From the NCBI GenBank assembly GCA_030427925.1, contig JAUICJ010000003.1, positions 1-64,000 on the forward strand: a stretch of DNA of 64,000 bases, given 5' to 3'. The stretch comes from Bacteroidia bacterium. Lineage in GTDB: Bacteria > Bacteroidota > Bacteroidia > Flavobacteriales_D > Sanyastnellaceae. Under the pieces are notes generated by a model. It did no database searches. It saw only the letters and a program-made list of their open reading frames with translations, and was not told the origin of the DNA. Both the position numbers and the translations under genes were made by a program. Below, piece by piece: positions 16,340 through 51,687 of this stretch. Position 1 is the first letter of the stretch. The number at the start of each line of letters is the position of its first letter.

Positions 16340-17114
16340 GCTCCTTCACAAAGGTGTCAAGGTCAAATCGGAACCGCGGTCCGTACACTCCTCCTTCCGC
16401 ACGACGCCCCGCAGAAATGACCATGGTGACCTTCGCTCCGCGCGGCAAACCCAACAACCGCCGCACCCGCCAAGCGTCGAACCCTTCCATCGGGCACGAA
16501 TCGAATCCTTCTGCGCGCAGGGCCAGCATGTAATGCGCGCACGCCAGCGCAGTGCTCTTGTGCGCCCACGTGGCCAACTGGGCCAAACTCAGCGGCTCCC
16601 TAGGCGTGGGCGTGCTCCACCCGCGGACCGTAAACCACACCCACTTGAACGGACGGAACACCCCCCAAGGTCCCAAGGTGTACACGAGCTTCGTGATTTT
16701 CTCGAAGTACTGCAAGCCCTTTGCGGGGGTTTTGGGGTCCGATTTCAACCGGCGGATCATCCATTCATTGTGTTCGCGCCACCGATCGGGACGCGCCACG
16801 AAGACGACCAATTCGGGCGCCGTAACGGCCGCCGGTTGGCCCATGCAGATGCGGGCAAGTTCCCGACGCTGGTCCGGATTGCGCACCCAATGAGCTTCCC
16901 AGACTTGCAAGTTGGACGAATTGGGCGCGAGTTGCGCAGAAGCCAAACACCGGCGCATCACGTCCTCCGGTACCTCCTCATCTGCATAAATCCGGACGCT
17001 TCTGCGGGCTTCGACCACGGCGTGGAAACTGGCAGCGTCGTGCTGTGGCGCTGCTGCTGCAACGCGCTTCCTCGACGTCGCCTCCTTCGAATCAAATACC
17101 TTTACCTTAACCAT
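16332..17114 (-). CDS. Nitroreductase family FMN-dependent oxidoreductase
   Basis: The 260-residue product is a member of the nitroreductase-like flavoenzyme superfamily. FMN-binding features are VEARRSVRIYADEEV near residue 35, LAPNSSNLQVWE near 62, and a Gly-rich PRGAKVTMVISAGR segment near the C-terminus. An insert of basic and aromatic residues (about 120-170) is longer than in classical NfsB. It overlaps both neighbours by eight bases, so it is translated within the salvage operon. Substrate is unknown; the position suggests redox work on a nucleoside-derived compound, but that is conjecture. Confidence 0.85.
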   Translation of the reverse strand: MVKVKVFDSKEATSRKRVAAAAPQHDAASFHAVVEARRSVRIYADEEVPEDVMRRCLASAQLAPNSSNLQVWEAHWVRNPDQRRELARICMGQPAAVTAPELVVFVARPDRWREHNEWMIRRLKSDPKTPAKGLQYFEKITKLVYTLGPWGVFRPFKWVWFTVRGWSTPTPREPLSLAQLATWAHKSTALACAHYMLALRAEGFDSCPMEGFDAWRVRRLLGLPRGAKVTMVISAGRRAEGGVYGPRFRFDLDTFVKEHV

Positions 17115-18414
17115 GTTCTTTGCTGATGACGCGTTCAATGAGGGCATCGGTTGCACGGGGGGCCTCCATTCCGAAAGTGTAGGCCTGCTGAACCGAACGG
17201 ATGGCGGCCTCGGCGGCCGCCTCGGTGCGGGCGTGCACCACGCCGAGGTGGTGCCCCGGAGATTCGCCGGTGAAGGCGAGTTCGGTGAGTCCCACGGAGG
17301 CATCAATGGGCGCACCCGGACGGGTGCGTCCACCGCCCAAGGCCACGACCGCCAACCCGATGGCCCGGGAATCAATCCCTGTGACCACGCCTTGCTGCAC
17401 GATCGGAATGGGCTTTCGAACGGGAGCCGAAGGCAACGCGGAGCTCAGGTCGCCGCCCATGGCCGCGACCGACCGCTCGAATCGCTCGTAGGCCGCCCCC
17501 GATTGCCAAGCCCGATCGAGTTGGGCGAGCGCCTCGGGTTCATCCTTTGCCAAACCCGAGTTGATCAGTAATTCGGACGCAAGTGCCCACGTCACCCGAC
17601 GAAGGGGTTCTGAACGCACTTCTCCACGCAGCAACGCCATGGCCTCTTCGATCTCAACGGCATTGCCTGCCGAACGGGCGAGCGGATCGTCCATCCGGGT
17701 GAGCAAGGCCGTGGTGGGCATGCCGCTTCCCGTGCCCACGTCGCAAATGGCTTGGGCCAGCTCGCGGCCTTGTTCGATGGTTTGCATGAAGGCGCCTTTG
17801 CCCACCTTGATGTCCATGACGAGGTGCTCCAAGCCGGCGGCCAACTTTTTCGACAGGATGCTGGCGGTGATGAGGCCGACTTGCTCCACCGTGGCGGTCA
17901 CGTCGCGGAGGGAATAGAGGCGGCGATCGGCTGGGGCGAGGGCGGCAGTTTGGCCTGCGATGGCCACGCCCACGTGCTGGACGATGCGTTGGAAATCGGC
18001 GGGATCGGGATGGGGATTGTAGCCGGGGATGGATTCCAATTTGTCCACGGTTCCCCCCGTGTGCGCCAACCCCCGGCCGGCGATCATCGGCACGTATCCG
18101 CCGCAAGCCGCGAGCAACGGCCCCAGCGCAATGGAGACCAAATCCCCGATTCCGCCGGTTGAATGCTTATCGAAAATGGGCCCGTTGCACGGCACTTCTG
18201 ACCAATCGAGGACCTGTCCGGAATCGCGCATGGCCAAGGTCACGGCGATGCGTTCTTCGGCATTCAGGTCCTGGTAATAGCACGCCATGGCCATCGCGGC
18301 TACCTGTGCATCGGACGCATCGCCTGTGGTAATTCCTTGGACGAAGTTCCGCCACTCGGTCGGGCTCAGTGCCAAGCCGTCACGCTTTGCGCGGATCATC
18401 TCAGGGTAGGTCAT
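17107..18414 (-). CDS. deoA: Thymidine phosphorylase
   Basis: The 435-residue product cleaves thymidine or deoxyuridine with phosphate to the free base and deoxyribose-1-phosphate. The family signature region reads IAGRGLAHTGGTVDKLESI, and the phosphate and substrate motifs KHSTGGIGDL and KVGKGAFM are intact. Length agrees with bacterial DeoA (about 435-440). It overlaps deoC by four bases upstream and the nitroreductase by eight bases downstream. Together with the transporter and aldolase it lets the cell use imported deoxynucleosides as carbon source. Confidence 0.95.
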   Translation of the reverse strand: MTYPEMIRAKRDGLALSPTEWRNFVQGITTGDASDAQVAAMAMACYYQDLNAEERIAVTLAMRDSGQVLDWSEVPCNGPIFDKHSTGGIGDLVSIALGPLLAACGGYVPMIAGRGLAHTGGTVDKLESIPGYNPHPDPADFQRIVQHVGVAIAGQTAALAPADRRLYSLRDVTATVEQVGLITASILSKKLAAGLEHLVMDIKVGKGAFMQTIEQGRELAQAICDVGTGSGMPTTALLTRMDDPLARSAGNAVEIEEAMALLRGEVRSEPLRRVTWALASELLINSGLAKDEPEALAQLDRAWQSGAAYERFERSVAAMGGDLSSALPSAPVRKPIPIVQQGVVTGIDSRAIGLAVVALGGGRTRPGAPIDASVGLTELAFTGESPGHHLGVVHARTEAAAEAAIRSVQQAYTFGMEAPRATDALIERVISKEHG

Positions 18415-19103
18415 CGGATCAGCAAATTAGAGGTGCCGAGGCGGCAAGTTGGGGGGGCAATGTAGTCGGCACCCAGTGCGCGCTCCACCTGGTCAAGATA
18501 GGCATGAGCGGCATCGAGCGTGCGGACGCCACCCGAGATCTTGATGCCTTTGCCGGAGCCGGGAAGCACCTCGAGCAGCGCATCCACCGCTTCCGGCGTG
18601 GCGCCAACGGCGACTTTACCCGTCGATGTTTTGAGGAAATCGGCCCCGGCTTCCAAACACCGCTCTGCCGCTCGCTGCAACTTCCGGGGTTCCCACGGGG
18701 CGCCCGTCTCGAGGATGACCTTCACCGCCCGCGAACCGGCCCATTCGCGGATCAAGGGCATGAGTTCCCTTGCAGGTCCCTCGTCACCCGACCGGAACGC
18801 TTCGTGCGGGAACACCACGTCCCACTCCTCCGCACCACCGGCACGTTGCGCTTCCTCCGCAATCGCTTCGATGGAATGATTTCCCGCGGGAAAGTTCAAC
18901 ACCGTCGCCAACGCAACGTCTTTGCGAACGCGGCGTTCAGCCCACCATTCCACCCATTTTAAGGGAATGCAACAGGCCGCAGGTCCACCTTCCATGGCCT
19001 CTACCCGGTCCAGCATGCGCGCCAAATCCGACTCCTCTTCCTCGAACGTCAGGGTCGTCCAATCCGTGCACGCCAGCACTTGAGCATCCCGCAATGCGCT
19101 CAT
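18411..19103 (-). CDS. deoC: Deoxyribose-phosphate aldolase
   Basis: The 230-residue product splits 2-deoxyribose-5-phosphate into glyceraldehyde-3-phosphate and acetaldehyde. The Schiff-base Lys158 sits in DFLKTSTGK and the second conserved Lys188 in IKISGGVRT. ATG 19103 overlaps the stop of the transporter gene by four bases, which supports this start over longer upstream extensions. The protein is a class I aldolase with a shortened N-terminus relative to E. coli DeoC (259 residues). Confidence 0.94.
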   Translation of the reverse strand: MSALRDAQVLACTDWTTLTFEEEESDLARMLDRVEAMEGGPAACCIPLKWVEWWAERRVRKDVALATVLNFPAGNHSIEAIAEEAQRAGGAEEWDVVFPHEAFRSGDEGPARELMPLIREWAGSRAVKVILETGAPWEPRKLQRAAERCLEAGADFLKTSTGKVAVGATPEAVDALLEVLPGSGKGIKISGGVRTLDAAHAYLDQVERALGADYIAPPTCRLGTSNLLIR

Positions 19104-20350
19104 GTCAACGACAAGAACAACCCCGCAATGGTCGCGGACATCAGGTTCGACAAGGTGGCTGCAAACACCGCCTTCAAGCCAAAACGCGCAATGTCCGGAC
19201 GACGCGAGGGCGCGATGCTCCCCAACCCACCGAGCAAGATGGCGATGCTCGACAAGTTGGCAAATCCACACAAGGCAAAGCTCACAATGGCCTTCGTCTT
19301 TTCGGACAGCACCAAAGCCGGGGCATCGCCGAGGTAGGGGGCGAAGTTGAGGTAGGCTACGAATTCGTTGACGATCAGTTTTTGTCCGATGAAGGAACCT
19401 GCCGTCACCGCTTCGGACCACGGCACCCCGATGAGGAATGCCACCGGCGCAAACACGTAACCGAGGATCCATTCCATGGTCAATTCGGGGAAACCAAACC
19501 AGCCACCGATGCCACCGAACAAGCCGTTGAGGAGGGCGATGAGCGCCACAAAGGCCAAGAGCATGGCGCCCACGTTCAATGCCAATTTCAAGCCCGAGGC
19601 CGCCCCCCCTGCCGCAGCATCGATGACGTTCACTGGCGAATCGTCGCCTTCTGCATCGGCCGCCGCGTCGACCAAGGCCTCGGCGGGCGTTTCGGTTTCT
19701 GGCTTGATGAGTTTCGCGAAGAGGAGGCCACCGGGAGCCGCCATGAACGACGCCGCAATGAGGTATTCGAGGGGAACGCCCATCGAGGCATAGCCGGCGA
19801 GCACGGATCCCGCAACGGAAGCGAGGCCGCCGACCATCACGGCAAAGAGTTCCGAGGAGGTCATGCGCGCGATGAAGGGCCGGACGACGAGGGGGGCTTC
19901 GGTTTGGCCAACAAAAATGTTCGCCGTAGCCGACAGCGACTCGGTCCGCGAAGTCCCCAGCAACTTTCGCAACCCGCCGCCCAGTAAATTGATGACCCAC
20001 TGCATGACCCCGATGTAGTACAAAACGGAAATCAGCGAGGAGAAGAAAATGATGACAGGCAACACGCGGAATGCGAAAATGAACCCCAAACTGCCGTCAT
20101 CAGCCACCAATCCGCCAAACATGAACCCGATCCCGTCGTTTCCGTAATCGATGACGCGAGAAACCCCGTTGGCCGTGGCGAGCAAGGCCTGCTTTCCCCA
20201 TGGAACGTAGAGCACGAAAGCTCCGAAAAACAGCTGAACGGCGAAGGCGCCGAGGACCGTGCGCAACCGAATGGCCCGCCGGTTGTCCGAGAGCAGCAAG
20301 GCCATCCCGATAAGGAAAGCCATGCCGATCAAGCTCATGATGATGCTCAT
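19100..20350 (-). CDS. NupC-type concentrative nucleoside transporter (CNT family)
   Basis: The 416-residue inner-membrane protein has about ten hydrophobic segments and the CNT signature regions SATANIFVGQTEAPLVVRPF and VAGSVLAGYASMG. It would import pyrimidine and possibly purine nucleosides with H+ or Na+. A cytoplasmic-looking acidic loop (ALVDAAADAEGDD) lies near residue 235. The start ATG at 20350 begins with MSIIMSLIGMAFLIGMALLL, a membrane segment. It lies 41 bp after cytidine deaminase and four bases over deoC, in the middle of the salvage operon. Confidence 0.93.
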   Translation of the reverse strand: MSIIMSLIGMAFLIGMALLLSDNRRAIRLRTVLGAFAVQLFFGAFVLYVPWGKQALLATANGVSRVIDYGNDGIGFMFGGLVADDGSLGFIFAFRVLPVIIFFSSLISVLYYIGVMQWVINLLGGGLRKLLGTSRTESLSATANIFVGQTEAPLVVRPFIARMTSSELFAVMVGGLASVAGSVLAGYASMGVPLEYLIAASFMAAPGGLLFAKLIKPETETPAEALVDAAADAEGDDSPVNVIDAAAGGAASGLKLALNVGAMLLAFVALIALLNGLFGGIGGWFGFPELTMEWILGYVFAPVAFLIGVPWSEAVTAGSFIGQKLIVNEFVAYLNFAPYLGDAPALVLSEKTKAIVSFALCGFANLSSIAILLGGLGSIAPSRRPDIARFGLKAVFAATLSNLMSATIAGLFLSLT

Positions 20351-20391: not shown

Positions 20392-20883
20392 TCAGCTCCC
20401 TTGCTTCCCCAGCCCCTTCGCCCGAAAACTGAATGGCAGGTACTGGGCAATGCCTGCCGCCACCGCCACCTCATCGTCTCGGGATTGCAGGATGAGCCGG
20501 ATGGGCGCGGGTTGGCGCAACTCGCATTCTTGGATGACTTGGCGACACCCCCCACAGGGCGAAAACGCCCCCCACTCCGCCTCCCCGTCCGAAGCCACCG
20601 CAAGGGCCGTTACGGCCACCCCGGGAAACTGGCTCAAGGCATGGAACAACGCCACACGCTCCGCGCACATCCCGCTGGGATAGGCCGCGTTCTCTTGATT
20701 GTTCCCGGTGATGACCGCTCCGTTCTCCAACAGCGCTGCGGCTCCCACCCGGAACCCCGAATACGGCGCATAGGCCCGCTTCACGGCTTCATGCGCAGCA
20801 CGCAAGAGCGCCTGATCTGCGGCGGGCAGCTCCTCATAAGCCCACGCTTCGAGGGTGCAGGTGACGTTGATTTCCTTCGGCAT
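20392..20883 (-). CDS. cdd: Cytidine deaminase
   Basis: The 163-residue product deaminates cytidine and deoxycytidine to uridine and deoxyuridine. Zinc ligands Cys73 (in MCAER, with catalytic Glu75), Cys110 and Cys113 (PCGGC) are all present, with the substrate motif NNQENAAYPSG before them. This is the tetrameric short class. The ATG directly abuts the stop of the upstream lipoprotein gene. It feeds uridine-type nucleosides to the phosphorylase encoded two genes downstream. Confidence 0.96.
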   Translation of the reverse strand: MPKEINVTCTLEAWAYEELPAADQALLRAAHEAVKRAYAPYSGFRVGAAALLENGAVITGNNQENAAYPSGMCAERVALFHALSQFPGVAVTALAVASDGEAEWGAFSPCGGCRQVIQECELRQPAPIRLILQSRDDEVAVAAGIAQYLPFSFRAKGLGKQGS

Positions 20884-21630
20884 TCATTCGGGGATTGAAA
20901 GCGGAAAGTACGAATGCGCCGGGATCAACGCCCCATCGACGGACCTGATTCGAACCCAATAGACACCCGATGGCGCCATTTCAGGGAATGCCAAATCAAC
21001 TTCCGACAAAGGGCAGAGCAGTCCGCCCGGTGTGGGCCACGTCCAGGTTTGCAGGACCTCCCCATCAGGGCCTTCCAGCTCCACCCGAACGGAATTCAAG
21101 CCCTCTGCATCGAACACATCGCCGACCAGGCCGATTGAAGTGCCGGGAGCTGCGGTCGGCAAGGGCGATAAGTCGGCAAACGGCACGCCGTTCAGGGAAT
21201 CGAGGGTGACCACGGACGTCGTGGGATTGGAGACCTCGAAGCTGAAGGTGACCGGATCGGTTGTTTGGCCTACCGCATCGACCAATTGCGCCCTCAACTG
21301 CAGGGTTCCCACGACCGAATCGGGCACCACCCAATGGCGACCGACCAGCGCGTTCGTGCCCGAGAGCTCCTGCTCATCGACCAGCGGCCACGACCCCGTC
21401 CGCACTTCAAACGCCTCCTCCAAAGGCACCACCTCCATGGTGGCCATCGCCAGCTCCACATCGTCCACAGCATCCGCCGTGAACGTCACCACATCCCCTG
21501 CCTCCAGTTCCAAGGTTCCGCCGTTCGAAACCCCATTCACCACCACTTCCCATTCCGGCGGCAAGACATCTTCCCGGGAGCAGCCCGCCAATGCGACCAC
21601 CGCCGCGCACACCATCGCACCATGTTTCAT
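20884..21630 (-). CDS. Lipoprotein with Ig-like beta-rich domains
   Basis: The 248-residue product has a lipoprotein signal (VVALAGC, Cys17) and then Val/Thr/Asp-rich sequence typical of one or two beta-sandwich domains, ending in VYWVRIRSVDGA. I do not recognise a named family. It is first in the run of genes leading into the nucleoside-salvage operon (stop and next start are adjacent). A near-consensus GAACTTTG ends 4 nt before the ATG. A role in nucleoside capture at the outer membrane is possible but only inferred from position. Confidence 0.75.
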   Translation of the reverse strand: MKHGAMVCAAVVALAGCSREDVLPPEWEVVVNGVSNGGTLELEAGDVVTFTADAVDDVELAMATMEVVPLEEAFEVRTGSWPLVDEQELSGTNALVGRHWVVPDSVVGTLQLRAQLVDAVGQTTDPVTFSFEVSNPTTSVVTLDSLNGVPFADLSPLPTAAPGTSIGLVGDVFDAEGLNSVRVELEGPDGEVLQTWTWPTPGGLLCPLSEVDLAFPEMAPSGVYWVRIRSVDGALIPAHSYFPLSIPE

Positions 21631-21694: not shown

Positions 21695-22468
21695 ATGGAC
21701 AATAAACAAGCGATCGTGAGCAATTGGCTGCCCCGCTACACGGGGGTCGCCTTGGAAGATTTCGGGGAGTACATCTTGTTGACCAATTTCAATTCGTACG
21801 TGGAGTTCTTTGCAAAGGAACATGGCGTTCAGGTGGTCGGCCAGGACAAATCCATGCCCTCCGCCACCGCCGGCGAAGTGACCATCATCAACTTCGGCAT
21901 GGGCAGCGCCAACGCCGCCACCATCATGGACCTGCTCAGCGCCATCTCGCCCAAAGCCGTCCTGTTCTTGGGGAAATGCGGCGCTTTGAAGTCGAAGAAC
22001 AAAGTCGGTGACCTCATTTTGCCCTTGGCGGGCATTCGCGGGGAAGGAACGTCGAACGATTACTTCCCGCCGGAAGTGCCCGCCATGCCGAGCTTCGCCC
22101 TGCAACGGGCGGTTTCCTCGACCATTAGGGACTACAACTGCGACTACTACACGGGGTCGGTGTACACCACGAACCGTCGGGTGTGGGAACACGACGAGGA
22201 ATTCAAGTCCTACCTGCGACGCACCCGAGCCCAAGCCATCGACATGGAAACGGCCACCCTGTTTTCCGTTGGGTTCGCGAACCGATTGCAAGTGGGCGCG
22301 TTGCTCTTGGTCAGCGATGAGCCCATGACCCCGTCGGGCGTGAAAACCGAAGCCAGCGACCGGCACGTCACCCAAAACTTCGTCGAGACGCACGTGCGCA
22401 TCGGCATGGACTCCATCAAGGAGATTCAATCCGAAGGCCGTTCCATCAAGCACCTGAAGTGGAAGTGA
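21695..22468 (+). CDS. amn: AMP nucleosidase (Bacteroidota type)
   Basis: The 257-residue product should hydrolyse AMP to adenine and ribose-5-phosphate. It is the short form found in Bacteroidota, lacking the long N-terminal domain of E. coli Amn (484 residues). The start MDNKQAIVSNWLPRYTG is typical of the family. Phosphorylase-superfamily motifs are NFGMGSANAAT, FLGKCGALK and AIDMETATLFSVG. The stop lies ten bases inside the next gene, so the nuclease-like partner is translated from the same mRNA. The enzyme controls AMP level and adenylate energy charge. Confidence 0.92.
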   Translation: MDNKQAIVSNWLPRYTGVALEDFGEYILLTNFNSYVEFFAKEHGVQVVGQDKSMPSATAGEVTIINFGMGSANAATIMDLLSAISPKAVLFLGKCGALKSKNKVGDLILPLAGIRGEGTSNDYFPPEVPAMPSFALQRAVSSTIRDYNCDYYTGSVYTTNRRVWEHDEEFKSYLRRTRAQAIDMETATLFSVGFANRLQVGALLLVSDEPMTPSGVKTEASDRHVTQNFVETHVRIGMDSIKEIQSEGRSIKHLKWK

Positions 22469-23298
22469 GCCCCGACGCGGTCCTCATCCGAAAGGCCGAC
22501 GGGGAAACCGTACCGTTTGATGAATCGAAATTGCGGGCCTCCCTCGAGCGCAGCGACGCCAAGCCACAAGTCGTCGATGGCATCGTGCGCGAGGTGAGGC
22601 AGCTGCTGGTCGATGGCATGTCCACCCGCACGATTTACCGGGAGGCCTTCAAGCGCCTGCGCGCGCATTCGCGGCATTCCGCGGGTCGGTACCGCCTGAA
22701 GCGCGCATTGTTCGAGCTGGGGCCGTCGGGGTATCCGTTCGAGCATTTCGTGGGCAAATTGATGGAGCATCAGGGCTTTCGCGCCGAAGTGGGCGTGGTG
22801 AAACCCGGGCGCTGTGTATCGCACGAAATGGATGTTTGGGCAAGCGATGGCCAAACCTTGCGCATCGTGGAATGCAAATTTCACAGCGATGCGAAACGCA
22901 AGTCCTCCATCCAAACCGCCCTTTACGTCCAAGCCCGATTCCAGGACCTGATGAGCAACTTGTCCGGGCCGGAAGCGGAACTCAACGCTGTGAGCTACGT
23001 GGTGACCAACACGCGATTCACGTCCGAGGCAGCCGCCTATGGGCGGTGCATGGGCATGCAACTCGTGGGGTGGGATGCGCCGCGAACCGGGTGCTTGAAG
23101 CAGTGGATCGACGAGAGCGGCTTCCATCCCTTGACCTGCCTCAGTGGTTTGAACCGGGCCGAAAAACACAGCTTGCTCGATCGGGGCATCGTGTTGTGCA
23201 GCGAACTGGACGCCGCGCAGCTGAAAGAAGCGGGGGTGCCAGAAAAAAAGCACCACAAGGTGCTTTCAGAATGCGCCTCCATCGTGGAGGCCCGCTGA
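22459..23298 (+). CDS. ATP-cone domain protein with Mrr-like nuclease domain
   Basis: The 279-residue product joins an N-terminal ATP-cone (about 5-90; VLIRKADGETVPFDESKL, GMSTRTIYREAFKRLR) to a restriction-endonuclease-like domain (about 95-190; EHFVGKLMEHQGF, then HEMDVWAS...LRIVECKFH, a D...ExK active site). A C-terminal part (about 190-279) is unassigned. ATP-cones sense ATP or dATP in ribonucleotide reductases and NrdR. Such fusions occur widely in Bacteroidota without known function. The start overlaps AMP nucleosidase by ten bases. Nucleotide-gated DNA cleavage, perhaps in repair or phage defence, is inference. Confidence 0.85.
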   Translation: MEVSPDAVLIRKADGETVPFDESKLRASLERSDAKPQVVDGIVREVRQLLVDGMSTRTIYREAFKRLRAHSRHSAGRYRLKRALFELGPSGYPFEHFVGKLMEHQGFRAEVGVVKPGRCVSHEMDVWASDGQTLRIVECKFHSDAKRKSSIQTALYVQARFQDLMSNLSGPEAELNAVSYVVTNTRFTSEAAAYGRCMGMQLVGWDAPRTGCLKQWIDESGFHPLTCLSGLNRAEKHSLLDRGIVLCSELDAAQLKEAGVPEKKHHKVLSECASIVEAR

Positions 23299-23299
23299 T

Positions 23300-23701
23300 T
23301 TAAAAGTCAGAATCGGTCACCTCGATGGTGTATTCATGCCGCCATTGCGAAGGAATTTTCCGGTCTTCAAACGACTCGATTTCCCAGGTTTCCATGAGCG
23401 TCCAATCCCGGTCCGTCAACGCACCATCCTCATTGTAAATCAACAAGGTATCAATGAAAGCTGCCGGCAAATCCGGATCGATGCGCCCGCCCAACCAGTC
23501 CTCCCTTCCAAGCTCTTGGCGTTCCCCGGCGGGCACGGTCACCGTGTCGAGAGCCATTCCCTGTATGTAGGATGAATGGGCGTGGATGACGGTCACGGGA
23601 CCGCTCGTTTCGTTGGCGATGAAGTAGATCTGTCGGGTGTTGCCTTCACAGCCCATTAGGGCGACGGACGCGGCAAAGAGAGGAAGCACGAAGCGATTCA
23701 T
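23300..23701 (-). CDS. Small lipoprotein
   Basis: The 133-residue product has a lipoprotein signal ending ALMGC and a Trp/Glu-rich beta-type remainder. No family recognised. ATG 23701 is preferred over ATG 23716 because the TAGTTTTG promoter box ends only 1 nt before 23716, leaving no room for a transcript start before it. The gene is convergent with the ATP-cone/Mrr gene, with one base between the stops. Confidence 0.7.
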   Translation of the reverse strand: MNRFVLPLFAASVALMGCEGNTRQIYFIANETSGPVTVIHAHSSYIQGMALDTVTVPAGERQELGREDWLGGRIDPDLPAAFIDTLLIYNEDGALTDRDWTLMETWEIESFEDRKIPSQWRHEYTIEVTDSDF

Positions 23702-23717
23702 GGGGTGATTTTGCATA

Positions 23718-51008: not shown

Positions 51009-51289
51009 CGCATCCACTGCTGCAACGGATGGATCGAACATTTGCTCCTCGTCCATTGACTACTGCGTGCGCAATTCAACAAACCAAACCCTGAATATCC
51101 TCTCAAGGCGCGAACAAAATCAAGCAGATGCGCATGCGCGTCGGCACCTATTCATGGTTTAGAGTGCTTTCAAAACACCAAGTCCTTCACACCATTGGTG
51201 GAGCAAGGGGAAGCAGAAAGGGCGTGAATAAGCGGGATACATCTGGGATACGCCCACTAAACCATTATAACGCTTTAAAACCTAAAAAG
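51009..51289. other. Gene-free stretch downstream of ssrA
   Basis: The 281-bp stretch between the CotH remnant and the 3' end of tmRNA holds no plausible gene. GGGATAC occurs twice in direct orientation at 51234-51240 and 51245-51251. Integrases of genomic islands often use the ssrA 3' end as target, so this is where an attachment-site scar might lie, but no integrase or duplicated ssrA end is visible. Confidence 0.4.
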
Positions 51290-51687
51290 TGGAGCCGGGG
51301 GGAGTCGAACCCCCGTCCAAACAAGGACACCACTAGCTTTCTACATGCTTATCCCTCAATTGATTGTCGACCGGTGGCTGAGCAAGGGCACCCCACCAAC
51401 GGCGTAGTTCAGTAAATTTCGCTCCGGACGTCGAACCCATCCTTTGCTAGTCCCATTTATCCGATACCCCGTTGATTTGGCGGAAGGGTCCGTACGCCAA
51501 ACCTGGGGCAGCTCGTCGCGTTACCTGGTAACGGGATTAGGCGAATCGACTGAGTCGATTATGCCGCGAGCGCGTAGGAAGTGTTGTCATTTCTGACTTG
51601 AAAGTTCAAGATTAACGAGCTGTGCTAACAAGTGCTCGGCATGCTTACGAGCGATATCATCTCGCTGTCAAATCCAAAATCGGCCCC
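51290..51687 (-). ncRNA. ssrA: tmRNA (transfer-messenger RNA)
   Basis: The tRNA-like ends pair perfectly apart from one G-U: 5' GGGGCCG (51687-51681) with 3' CGGCTCC, followed by the discriminator A at 51290. The T arm GGGTTCGACTCCC is intact. The 3' CCA is not encoded. A tag-coding stretch with the universal YALAA end is present. Total length, about 398 nt, is normal. The RNA rescues stalled ribosomes and tags incomplete proteins for proteolysis with SmpB. The 5' leader to the promoter is about 20 nt and would be removed by RNase P. Confidence 0.95.
51559..51594 (-). other. tmRNA proteolysis-tag reading frame
   Basis: Minus-strand codons AGA AAT GAC AAC ACT TCC TAC GCG CTC GCG GCA TAA encode RNDNTSYALAA. 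The resume codon follows the sequence AAGTC, as in E. coli (AGTC then the tag). With the Ala from the charged tmRNA the tag is A-RNDNTSYALAA. Confidence 0.85.

Follow-up and report, generated by a model that had tools for sequence, protein, structure and literature searches.

The window, a stretch of 64,000 nucleotides from the start of contig JAUICJ010000003.1 of a Bacteroidia bacterium, carries two overlapping genes on the plus strand: amn (21695–22468), which specifies a 257 amino acid AMP nucleosidase of the short form, and a gene for a 279 amino acid ATP-cone/AF1548-type PD-(D/E)XK nuclease (22459–23298). They share ten bases (22459–22468), and the start codon of the nuclease falls within the last codons of amn. 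Both reading frames and the overlap agree with the original prediction, and profile matches bear out the domain content that it had proposed, an AMP nucleosidase followed by an ATP-cone joined to an Mrr-type nuclease.

Upstream, on the minus strand, are genes for a thymidine/pyrimidine-nucleoside phosphorylase of the bacterial type (17107–18414; PF00591/PF07831, with PRK05820 and TIGR02644 above cut-off), a concentrative nucleoside transporter of the NupC type (19100–20350; PF07662/PF01773) and, as the divergent neighbor, a cytidine deaminase (cdd, 20392–20883; PF00383). The stretch between the first two (18411–19100) was taken for deoC. Downstream lies a convergent hypothetical gene of 138 codons (23300–23716, minus strand), which matched no family. 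The transporter, the deaminase and, by tblastn, the 138-residue gene are syntenic in a congener (G001) and in a further genome, G005. In the latter the thymidine phosphorylase, transporter, cdd, amn and 138-residue genes stand in the order of the window, the nuclease is absent and the 138-residue gene directly abuts amn. In G005, moreover, an additional ORF separates cdd from the transporter, and there is no match to the 248-residue gene at 20884–21630 or to the stretch 18411–19100. A tmRNA was called elsewhere in the window (51289–51687, minus strand) with an unusually long tag peptide, possibly a misread tag.

The amn product matches NF005500/PRK07115 (417.9 bits, cut-off 264) and TIGR01721 (345.6 bits, cut-off 307.2) over its full length, as it does PDB entry 1ybf (E=3e-106), the short AMP nucleosidase of Bacteroides thetaiotaomicron. 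The protein is predicted to hydrolyse AMP to adenine and ribose-5-phosphate. 1ybf is not known to have a nuclease partner.

The start codon of the nuclease occupies the same spot in three genomes from two genera, being GTG in the window genome (G000), ATG in its congener G001 and GTG in G013. Two in-frame GTG codons (22459 and 22465) precede the ATP-cone in the window. Initiation at the second would give a four-base GTGA overlap, but this start was rejected on the evidence of G013, where the codon reads GTA and the one matching 22459 is the sole usable start before the cone. The adjacency of the two genes is more than chance, since the identical overlap persists in all three genomes while the nucleases have diverged to 70% and 45% identity. 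As no intergenic space exists, the nuclease most likely depends on the transcription and translation of amn. The locus is probably a translationally coupled two-gene unit, and the co-translation expected in the original prediction is likely.

The nuclease protein begins with an ATP-cone (residues 5–82, nucleotides 22471–22704; PF03477, 31.8 bits, cut-off 25.8) and continues into an AF1548-like nuclease with a C-terminal domain (residues 88–279, nucleotides 22720–23295). Mrr_cat (PF04471), a domain of type IV restriction enzymes, is present at 24.9 bits (cut-off 21). PF22357 scores 16.7 bits, below its cut-off of 23.9, and is matched by 47 of 70 nuclease homologues at E 0.01, the threshold at which the ATP-cone is found in 67 of 70; across 61 genomes the PF22357 profile matched in two, G000 not being among them, and was too weak to be of use. 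AlphaFold2, given 70 homologues, produced a model (mean pLDDT 96.0, pTM 0.90) that was compared with known structures. Over residues 88–279 it superimposes on AF1548 (PDB 1y88; Z 22.9, rmsd 2.9 Å, 181 residues; VIA-align 2), and over residues 4–82 the three best NrdR chains gave Z 10.1–11.2 and rmsd 1.6–2.2 Å for 76–78 residues. Lower fold matches to the nuclease domain include AspBHI, NucS/EndoMS, MspJI, FokI, Can2, Card1 and Cdn1. When the ATP-cone profile was run against PDB sequences the top matches were designed helical repeats covering one helix, which look like chance, and the ribonucleotide reductase (RNR) of E. coli appeared only at E 0.06–0.13; sequence matching to the PDB being weak, the cone assignment is carried by Pfam and the fold match. 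A search of BFVD returned 11 matches with E of at most 0.001, all partial; the named ones were restriction-type nucleases, uncharacterised proteins and one RNR.

Two known types of protein share parts of this architecture. ATP-cones occur fused to a zinc ribbon in NrdR and to the reductase in RNR; the window protein has the same cone fold, above the Pfam cut-off, joined unlike these to a nuclease. AF1548, a predicted restriction-type endonuclease, is alike in its nuclease and C-terminal domains (30% identity), and its solved chain (184 residues in the compared model, 199 in the sequence) is without an ATP-cone. Among the open-access papers listed by literature searches, none was recognisable as dealing with an ATP-cone/Mrr protein.

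The catalytic motifs are H122-E123-x-D125 (22822–22833) and E138-C139-K140 (22870–22878). The assignment follows the D, E and K residues predicted to be catalytic in AF1548 (D38, E51 and K53, in the account of that protein in PMC1821046) together with knowledge of the family. E95, H122, E123, D125, E138, C139, K140, Y156, R160 and N184 are invariant in 123 of 123 different homologues. A search with peptide patterns supplied 79 of them, and as one pattern includes H122, E123 and D125, the conservation of these three is partly selected for in those rows; all 44 homologues outside the pattern-selected set keep E95, H122, E123, D125, E138, C139 and K140. A loss of catalytic residues from most homologues, which would have told against the original prediction, is thus not found, and the intact PD-(D/E)XK site suggests that the protein cuts nucleic acid. 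In the cone K12, K24 and T56 (120 of 123 each) and K81 (123 of 123) are nearly invariant, which is consistent with ATP/dATP binding. An arginine that contacts the ligand in RNR cones is not kept; at its position here, residue 13, most homologues have A, Y or S. Membership of the ATP-cone family argues that the nuclease may read ATP or dATP. Relative to G001 the nuclease has dN 0.25 and dS 1.9 (a rough NG86 estimate with dS near saturation) and on that ratio looks constrained; it nevertheless evolves much faster than amn, for which dN is 0.045 in the same comparison.

Within the window's family the nuclease is present in 4 of 114 genomes, adjoining amn in three and lying on a different contig from amn in G007. 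A sample of the order contained 43 carriers among 399 genomes, three of them with amn adjacent; amn lies elsewhere in four others (G007, G038, G040 and G051) and in 28 of the remaining 36, the last eight having no amn match at E 1e-30. In a sample of the phylum 79 of 392 genomes carry the nuclease and, G000 apart, amn is adjacent in none of the 78: 41 have an amn match and 37 have none at E 1e-30. Of the 41, 32 share only ~30–36% identity and so may be other AMN types, and the nearest amn-like match on a nuclease-bearing contig is ~86 kb away (G337). In G420 and G767 the nuclease lies at a contig start (bases 52 and 143), and an amn beyond the break may precede it. Among 80 loci of a contig scan by peptide pattern (kept from 571 confirmed candidates) and six relatives, counted by tblastn, amn was held only by the G001 contig, which occurs twice, and by G013. 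A general linkage of ATP-cone/Mrr genes with amn is accordingly rejected, and the want of conserved linkage that was to count against the original prediction is largely what is observed. With adjacency in only 3 of 43 and 0 of 78 carriers, and with the three cases forming a single clade, the original idea of a nuclease answering to its AMN partner does not describe a conserved system.

A tree of 123 nucleases unites the three amn-linked proteins (100/98) on long branches, unusual composition being flagged for two of the three; two independent acquisitions behind amn are not supported, given this single clade. The nuclease of G007 falls elsewhere, beside sequences from Fulvivirga and uncultured Flavobacteriales (97/65). 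The amn tree likewise groups G000, G001, G013 and G005 together (100/99), and within this clade G013 and G005 are joined weakly (87/60), a pairing that would require a loss of the nuclease in G005. The simplest history, its inner branching being weak, is one gain of the nuclease behind amn in an ancestor followed by loss in G005. Nucleases of the sister clade lie near genes named by eye as alcohol dehydrogenase, succinyl-CoA ligase, a butyrate-kinase-like gene and a UroD-like gene; since these are unrelated, the amn operon may be no more than another of the hosts in which the nuclease has lodged. The pairing with amn is a lineage-specific curiosity.

These facts bring in a strong rival to any functional account, one that is a real possibility if short of probable: that the nuclease gene is accessory, stands on its own and can settle 3' of various genes, and that amn lends it expression while the two products have no functional link. 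Its scarcity in the family, the lack of a nearby amn in the 78 other carriers of the phylum sample, the different upstream genes of the sister clade and the rapid divergence of the nuclease relative to amn all agree with such a history. The retention of the overlap in two genera agrees with it less well, the more so as G013 has kept the overlap despite a different gene downstream of the nuclease. The neighbors of the nuclease in other genomes, described below, bear on the question from both sides.

The original prediction had also set the pair within a theme of phage defence. In such a nucleotide-gated anti-phage pair, infection would shift adenine or deoxynucleotide pools, the cone would sense the change, the nuclease would cut phage or host DNA and AMN would serve as partner effector. 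The patchy distribution of the nuclease speaks for such a role, and the nuclease domain is structurally similar to those of Can2, Card1 and Cdn1 (Z 9.8–10.4), CARF-PD-(D/E)XK nucleases with a comparable working layout, a nucleotide-binding sensor followed by a PD-(D/E)XK nuclease. Their sensor is CARF, whereas that of the window protein is, by Pfam and the model, an ATP-cone; an N-terminal CARF domain is thus absent. Among 70 homologues 65 match the PADLOC model CARF4--CARF_PDDEXK, 42 match ZorD and 32 the defence candidate PDC-S02 (E≤0.01, best 1.2e-8), but the models concerned bear nuclease domains of this type and the matches are read as reflecting that shared domain. Against the 2023 PADLOC library the window nuclease itself matched only CARF_PDDEXK (E 0.0017), and AMN only two models (E 0.004–0.01). 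No nuclease homologue was found in 50,697 phage records, and no cas gene is present in the two annotated plasmid regions, from Pontibacter and Criblamydia, that carry the nuclease. The neighbors are genes of nucleoside catabolism here and of stress and fermentation elsewhere, and amn, which turned up in 16 of the 20 genomes examined for it, that of the window among them, looks like a core gene. The defence theme therefore receives little support, and we regard an anti-phage role as improbable.

The usual partners of the nuclease were examined at 122 loci: 79 from the pattern scan, which is biased toward the nearest relatives of the query, six relatives and 37 hand-picked from 36 genera of the phylum sample, one per genus plus a second locus from G332. 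At 64 of the 122 the nuclease is followed, on its own strand and at a distance of no more than 500 nt, by a gene for a beta-CASP/RMMBL metallo-hydrolase. In the one-per-genus set the beta-CASP RNase accompanies 17 of 37 nucleases, against 0 of 20 control stretches (15 kb each, from 20 sampled genomes, at round-number positions chosen by hand), where the sole match of any query was one phosphofructokinase (PFK). Other neighbors on the same strand at E 1e-10 are a P-type ATPase (48 loci), Usp (41), GAPDH-II (29), FBA (26), Prs (26), an archaeal-type thymidine/AMP phosphorylase (25), LDH (21) and PFK (16). The count for the phosphorylase takes in the same strand only; a match at L025 on the opposite strand, read as the bacterial-type enzyme, was left out. 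The one archaeal-type phosphorylase that was scanned passes PRK04350 and TIGR02645 and reaches 471.7 bits with the AMP phosphorylase profile, below its cut-off of 535. The suggestion that the nuclease is tied to adenine nucleotides or the energy state receives some indirect backing from the phosphorylase and Prs, and it is weakened by the one-per-genus set, in which these two genes accompany only 2 of 37 nucleases. At 26 of the 122 loci (e.g. L059:8870–9124) the gene that comes immediately after the nuclease, in most cases preceding the beta-CASP gene, encodes a conserved protein of ~84 amino acids that matched nothing in Pfam or NCBIfam.

An ORF overlapping the nuclease or ending no more than 15 nt before it was present at 43 of the 122 loci, so that a tight upstream gene is common in this family, as a nuclease settling behind various genes would have it. 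These ORFs comprised 25 Usp-like genes, two mechanical ORFs of fewer than 100 codons and 16 others, including amn of G013; the count misses amn at L025 owing to the choice of ORF. Since 25 of the 43 are Usp-like, the partners are not random, and a nucleotide or energy theme is common to the neighbors here and at many homologues; both points speak against mere lodging behind whichever gene is at hand.

Among 72,556 plasmid records the nuclease was found in two, from Pontibacter and from Criblamydia, a member of another phylum (Chlamydiota). In both it is followed by genes for a metallo-beta-lactamase-type (MBL) protein, a thymidine-phosphorylase-family protein and Prs, and on the Criblamydia plasmid (L158, NZ_LK031773.1) the nuclease, MBL, phosphorylase and Prs genes overlap end to end. 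This plasmid carries a stress/fermentation island in which phosphoketolase and acetate kinase are present. Relatives of the beta-CASP protein occur in 270 plasmid records, many of them rhizobial. In the only such region read, from Rhizobium rosettiformans, the beta-CASP gene stands with Prs, a phosphorylase and a gene annotated as xylulose 5-phosphate 3-epimerase, and the nuclease is absent.

On the plasmids of Pontibacter and Criblamydia, the genes behind the nuclease share their annotated product names with bll3117-bll3116-bll3115 of Bradyrhizobium, which specify a thymidine phosphorylase family protein, Prs and an MBL protein, respectively. According to Table 2 of PMC6515984 these genes are raised in microoxia, with protein log2 fold changes of 2.9, 4.4 and 2.1 and transcript fold changes of 15.4, 7.7 and 5.1 for bll3115, bll3116 and bll3117, and the table notes that none of the three belongs to the direct FixK2 regulon established earlier. 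Bll3115 and bll3117 are listed as lower in a fixK2 deletion (PMC9104804). The rows consulted in the former table include no nuclease, and the likeness of the Bacteroidota genes to bll3115-3117, and with it a possible link to microoxia, is by annotated name only.

Such neighbors raise the possibility, unlikely in our estimation, of a scavenging pathway used under energy stress, in which the nuclease, aided elsewhere by the beta-CASP RNase, would break nucleic acid to nucleotides, ribose phosphate would be freed by AMN here and by the AMP/nucleoside phosphorylase elsewhere, and the sugar would then be fermented. It would account for islands containing Prs, the archaeal-type phosphorylase, GAPDH-II, FBA, PFK, LDH and Usp, for the phosphoketolase and acetate kinase genes of the Criblamydia plasmid, and for the position of amn beside nucleoside-catabolism genes in the window. 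Full islands are, however, a minority, as the phosphorylase and Prs counts indicate, and beside Bacteroidota nucleases phosphoketolase and acetate kinase are rare (1 of 85 and 2 of 85 loci; 0 of 37 in the one-per-genus set). Moreover, the window genome contains no relative of the beta-CASP RNase at E 1e-10, and its sole match to the archaeal-type phosphorylase is the bacterial-type thymidine phosphorylase at 17107–18414.

The explanation that we favor, at about even confidence, is that the nuclease is an accessory enzyme, probably gated by ATP/dATP, which acts in energy or redox stress and which in this lineage is co-translated with amn next to genes of nucleoside catabolism. The translational coupling, the gating and its direction, the substrate and the functional tie to AMN are parts of it that we infer. 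The protein belongs to a Bacteroidota-centred family in which the ATP-cone, the nucleotide switch of NrdR and ribonucleotide reductase, is fused to an AF1548/Mrr-type nuclease. Binding of ATP or dATP to the cone would set the quaternary state and thereby switch the nuclease, which on a change in energy state may cut DNA or RNA. Its presence behind amn is most simply traced to a single arrival in an ancestor shared by a few Flavobacteriales, in whose descendants the two genes have stayed in register. Co-translation would mean that its production is controlled jointly with that of the enzyme converting AMP to adenine and ribose-5-phosphate, and the breakdown of nucleic acid and the removal of AMP would then rise together.

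If the cone does gate the nuclease, a widespread enzyme of this phylum would be under direct ATP/dATP control with no cyclic-oligonucleotide messenger. The beta-CASP RNase partner and the islands of stress genes suggest where its role might be sought, in the turnover of nucleic acid under energy or oxygen limitation, and the pairing with amn matters mainly as a natural instance of joint control over AMP removal and a nuclease. A broader proposal, which we offer as a rather long shot, is that ATP-cone/AF1548 proteins represent a new kind of energy-sensing nuclease, reading ATP/dATP directly in place of a second messenger and CARF. When energy falls, for example in anoxia, they might open nucleic acid to breakdown, feeding AMN here and the beta-CASP RNase, phosphorylase and Prs elsewhere, with nucleic acid acting as a reserve of ribose.

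Several further features of the family were recorded. Some copies of the nuclease gene (G360, G503, G470, G516, G739 and G730) contain one in-frame stop, and the gene may be decaying there. An island of the Flavobacteriaceae type lies on L092, a contig that bears the label Eubacteriaceae, and its nuclease groups inside the Flavobacteriaceae, through either a binning error or a recent transfer. Matches of a cone query for a glucoamylase-type fusion across the loci were dropped, as they were mostly to the cone of the nuclease itself. In G472, G285, G384, G420 and G523 a second ATP-cone lies just downstream of the nuclease in a frame of 513–527 amino acids. In the only one of these genomes in which it was scanned, G472 (L118:2693–3826), the second cone is fused to a putative glucoamylase (PF10091), and a glutaredoxin-like gene lies between it and the nuclease.
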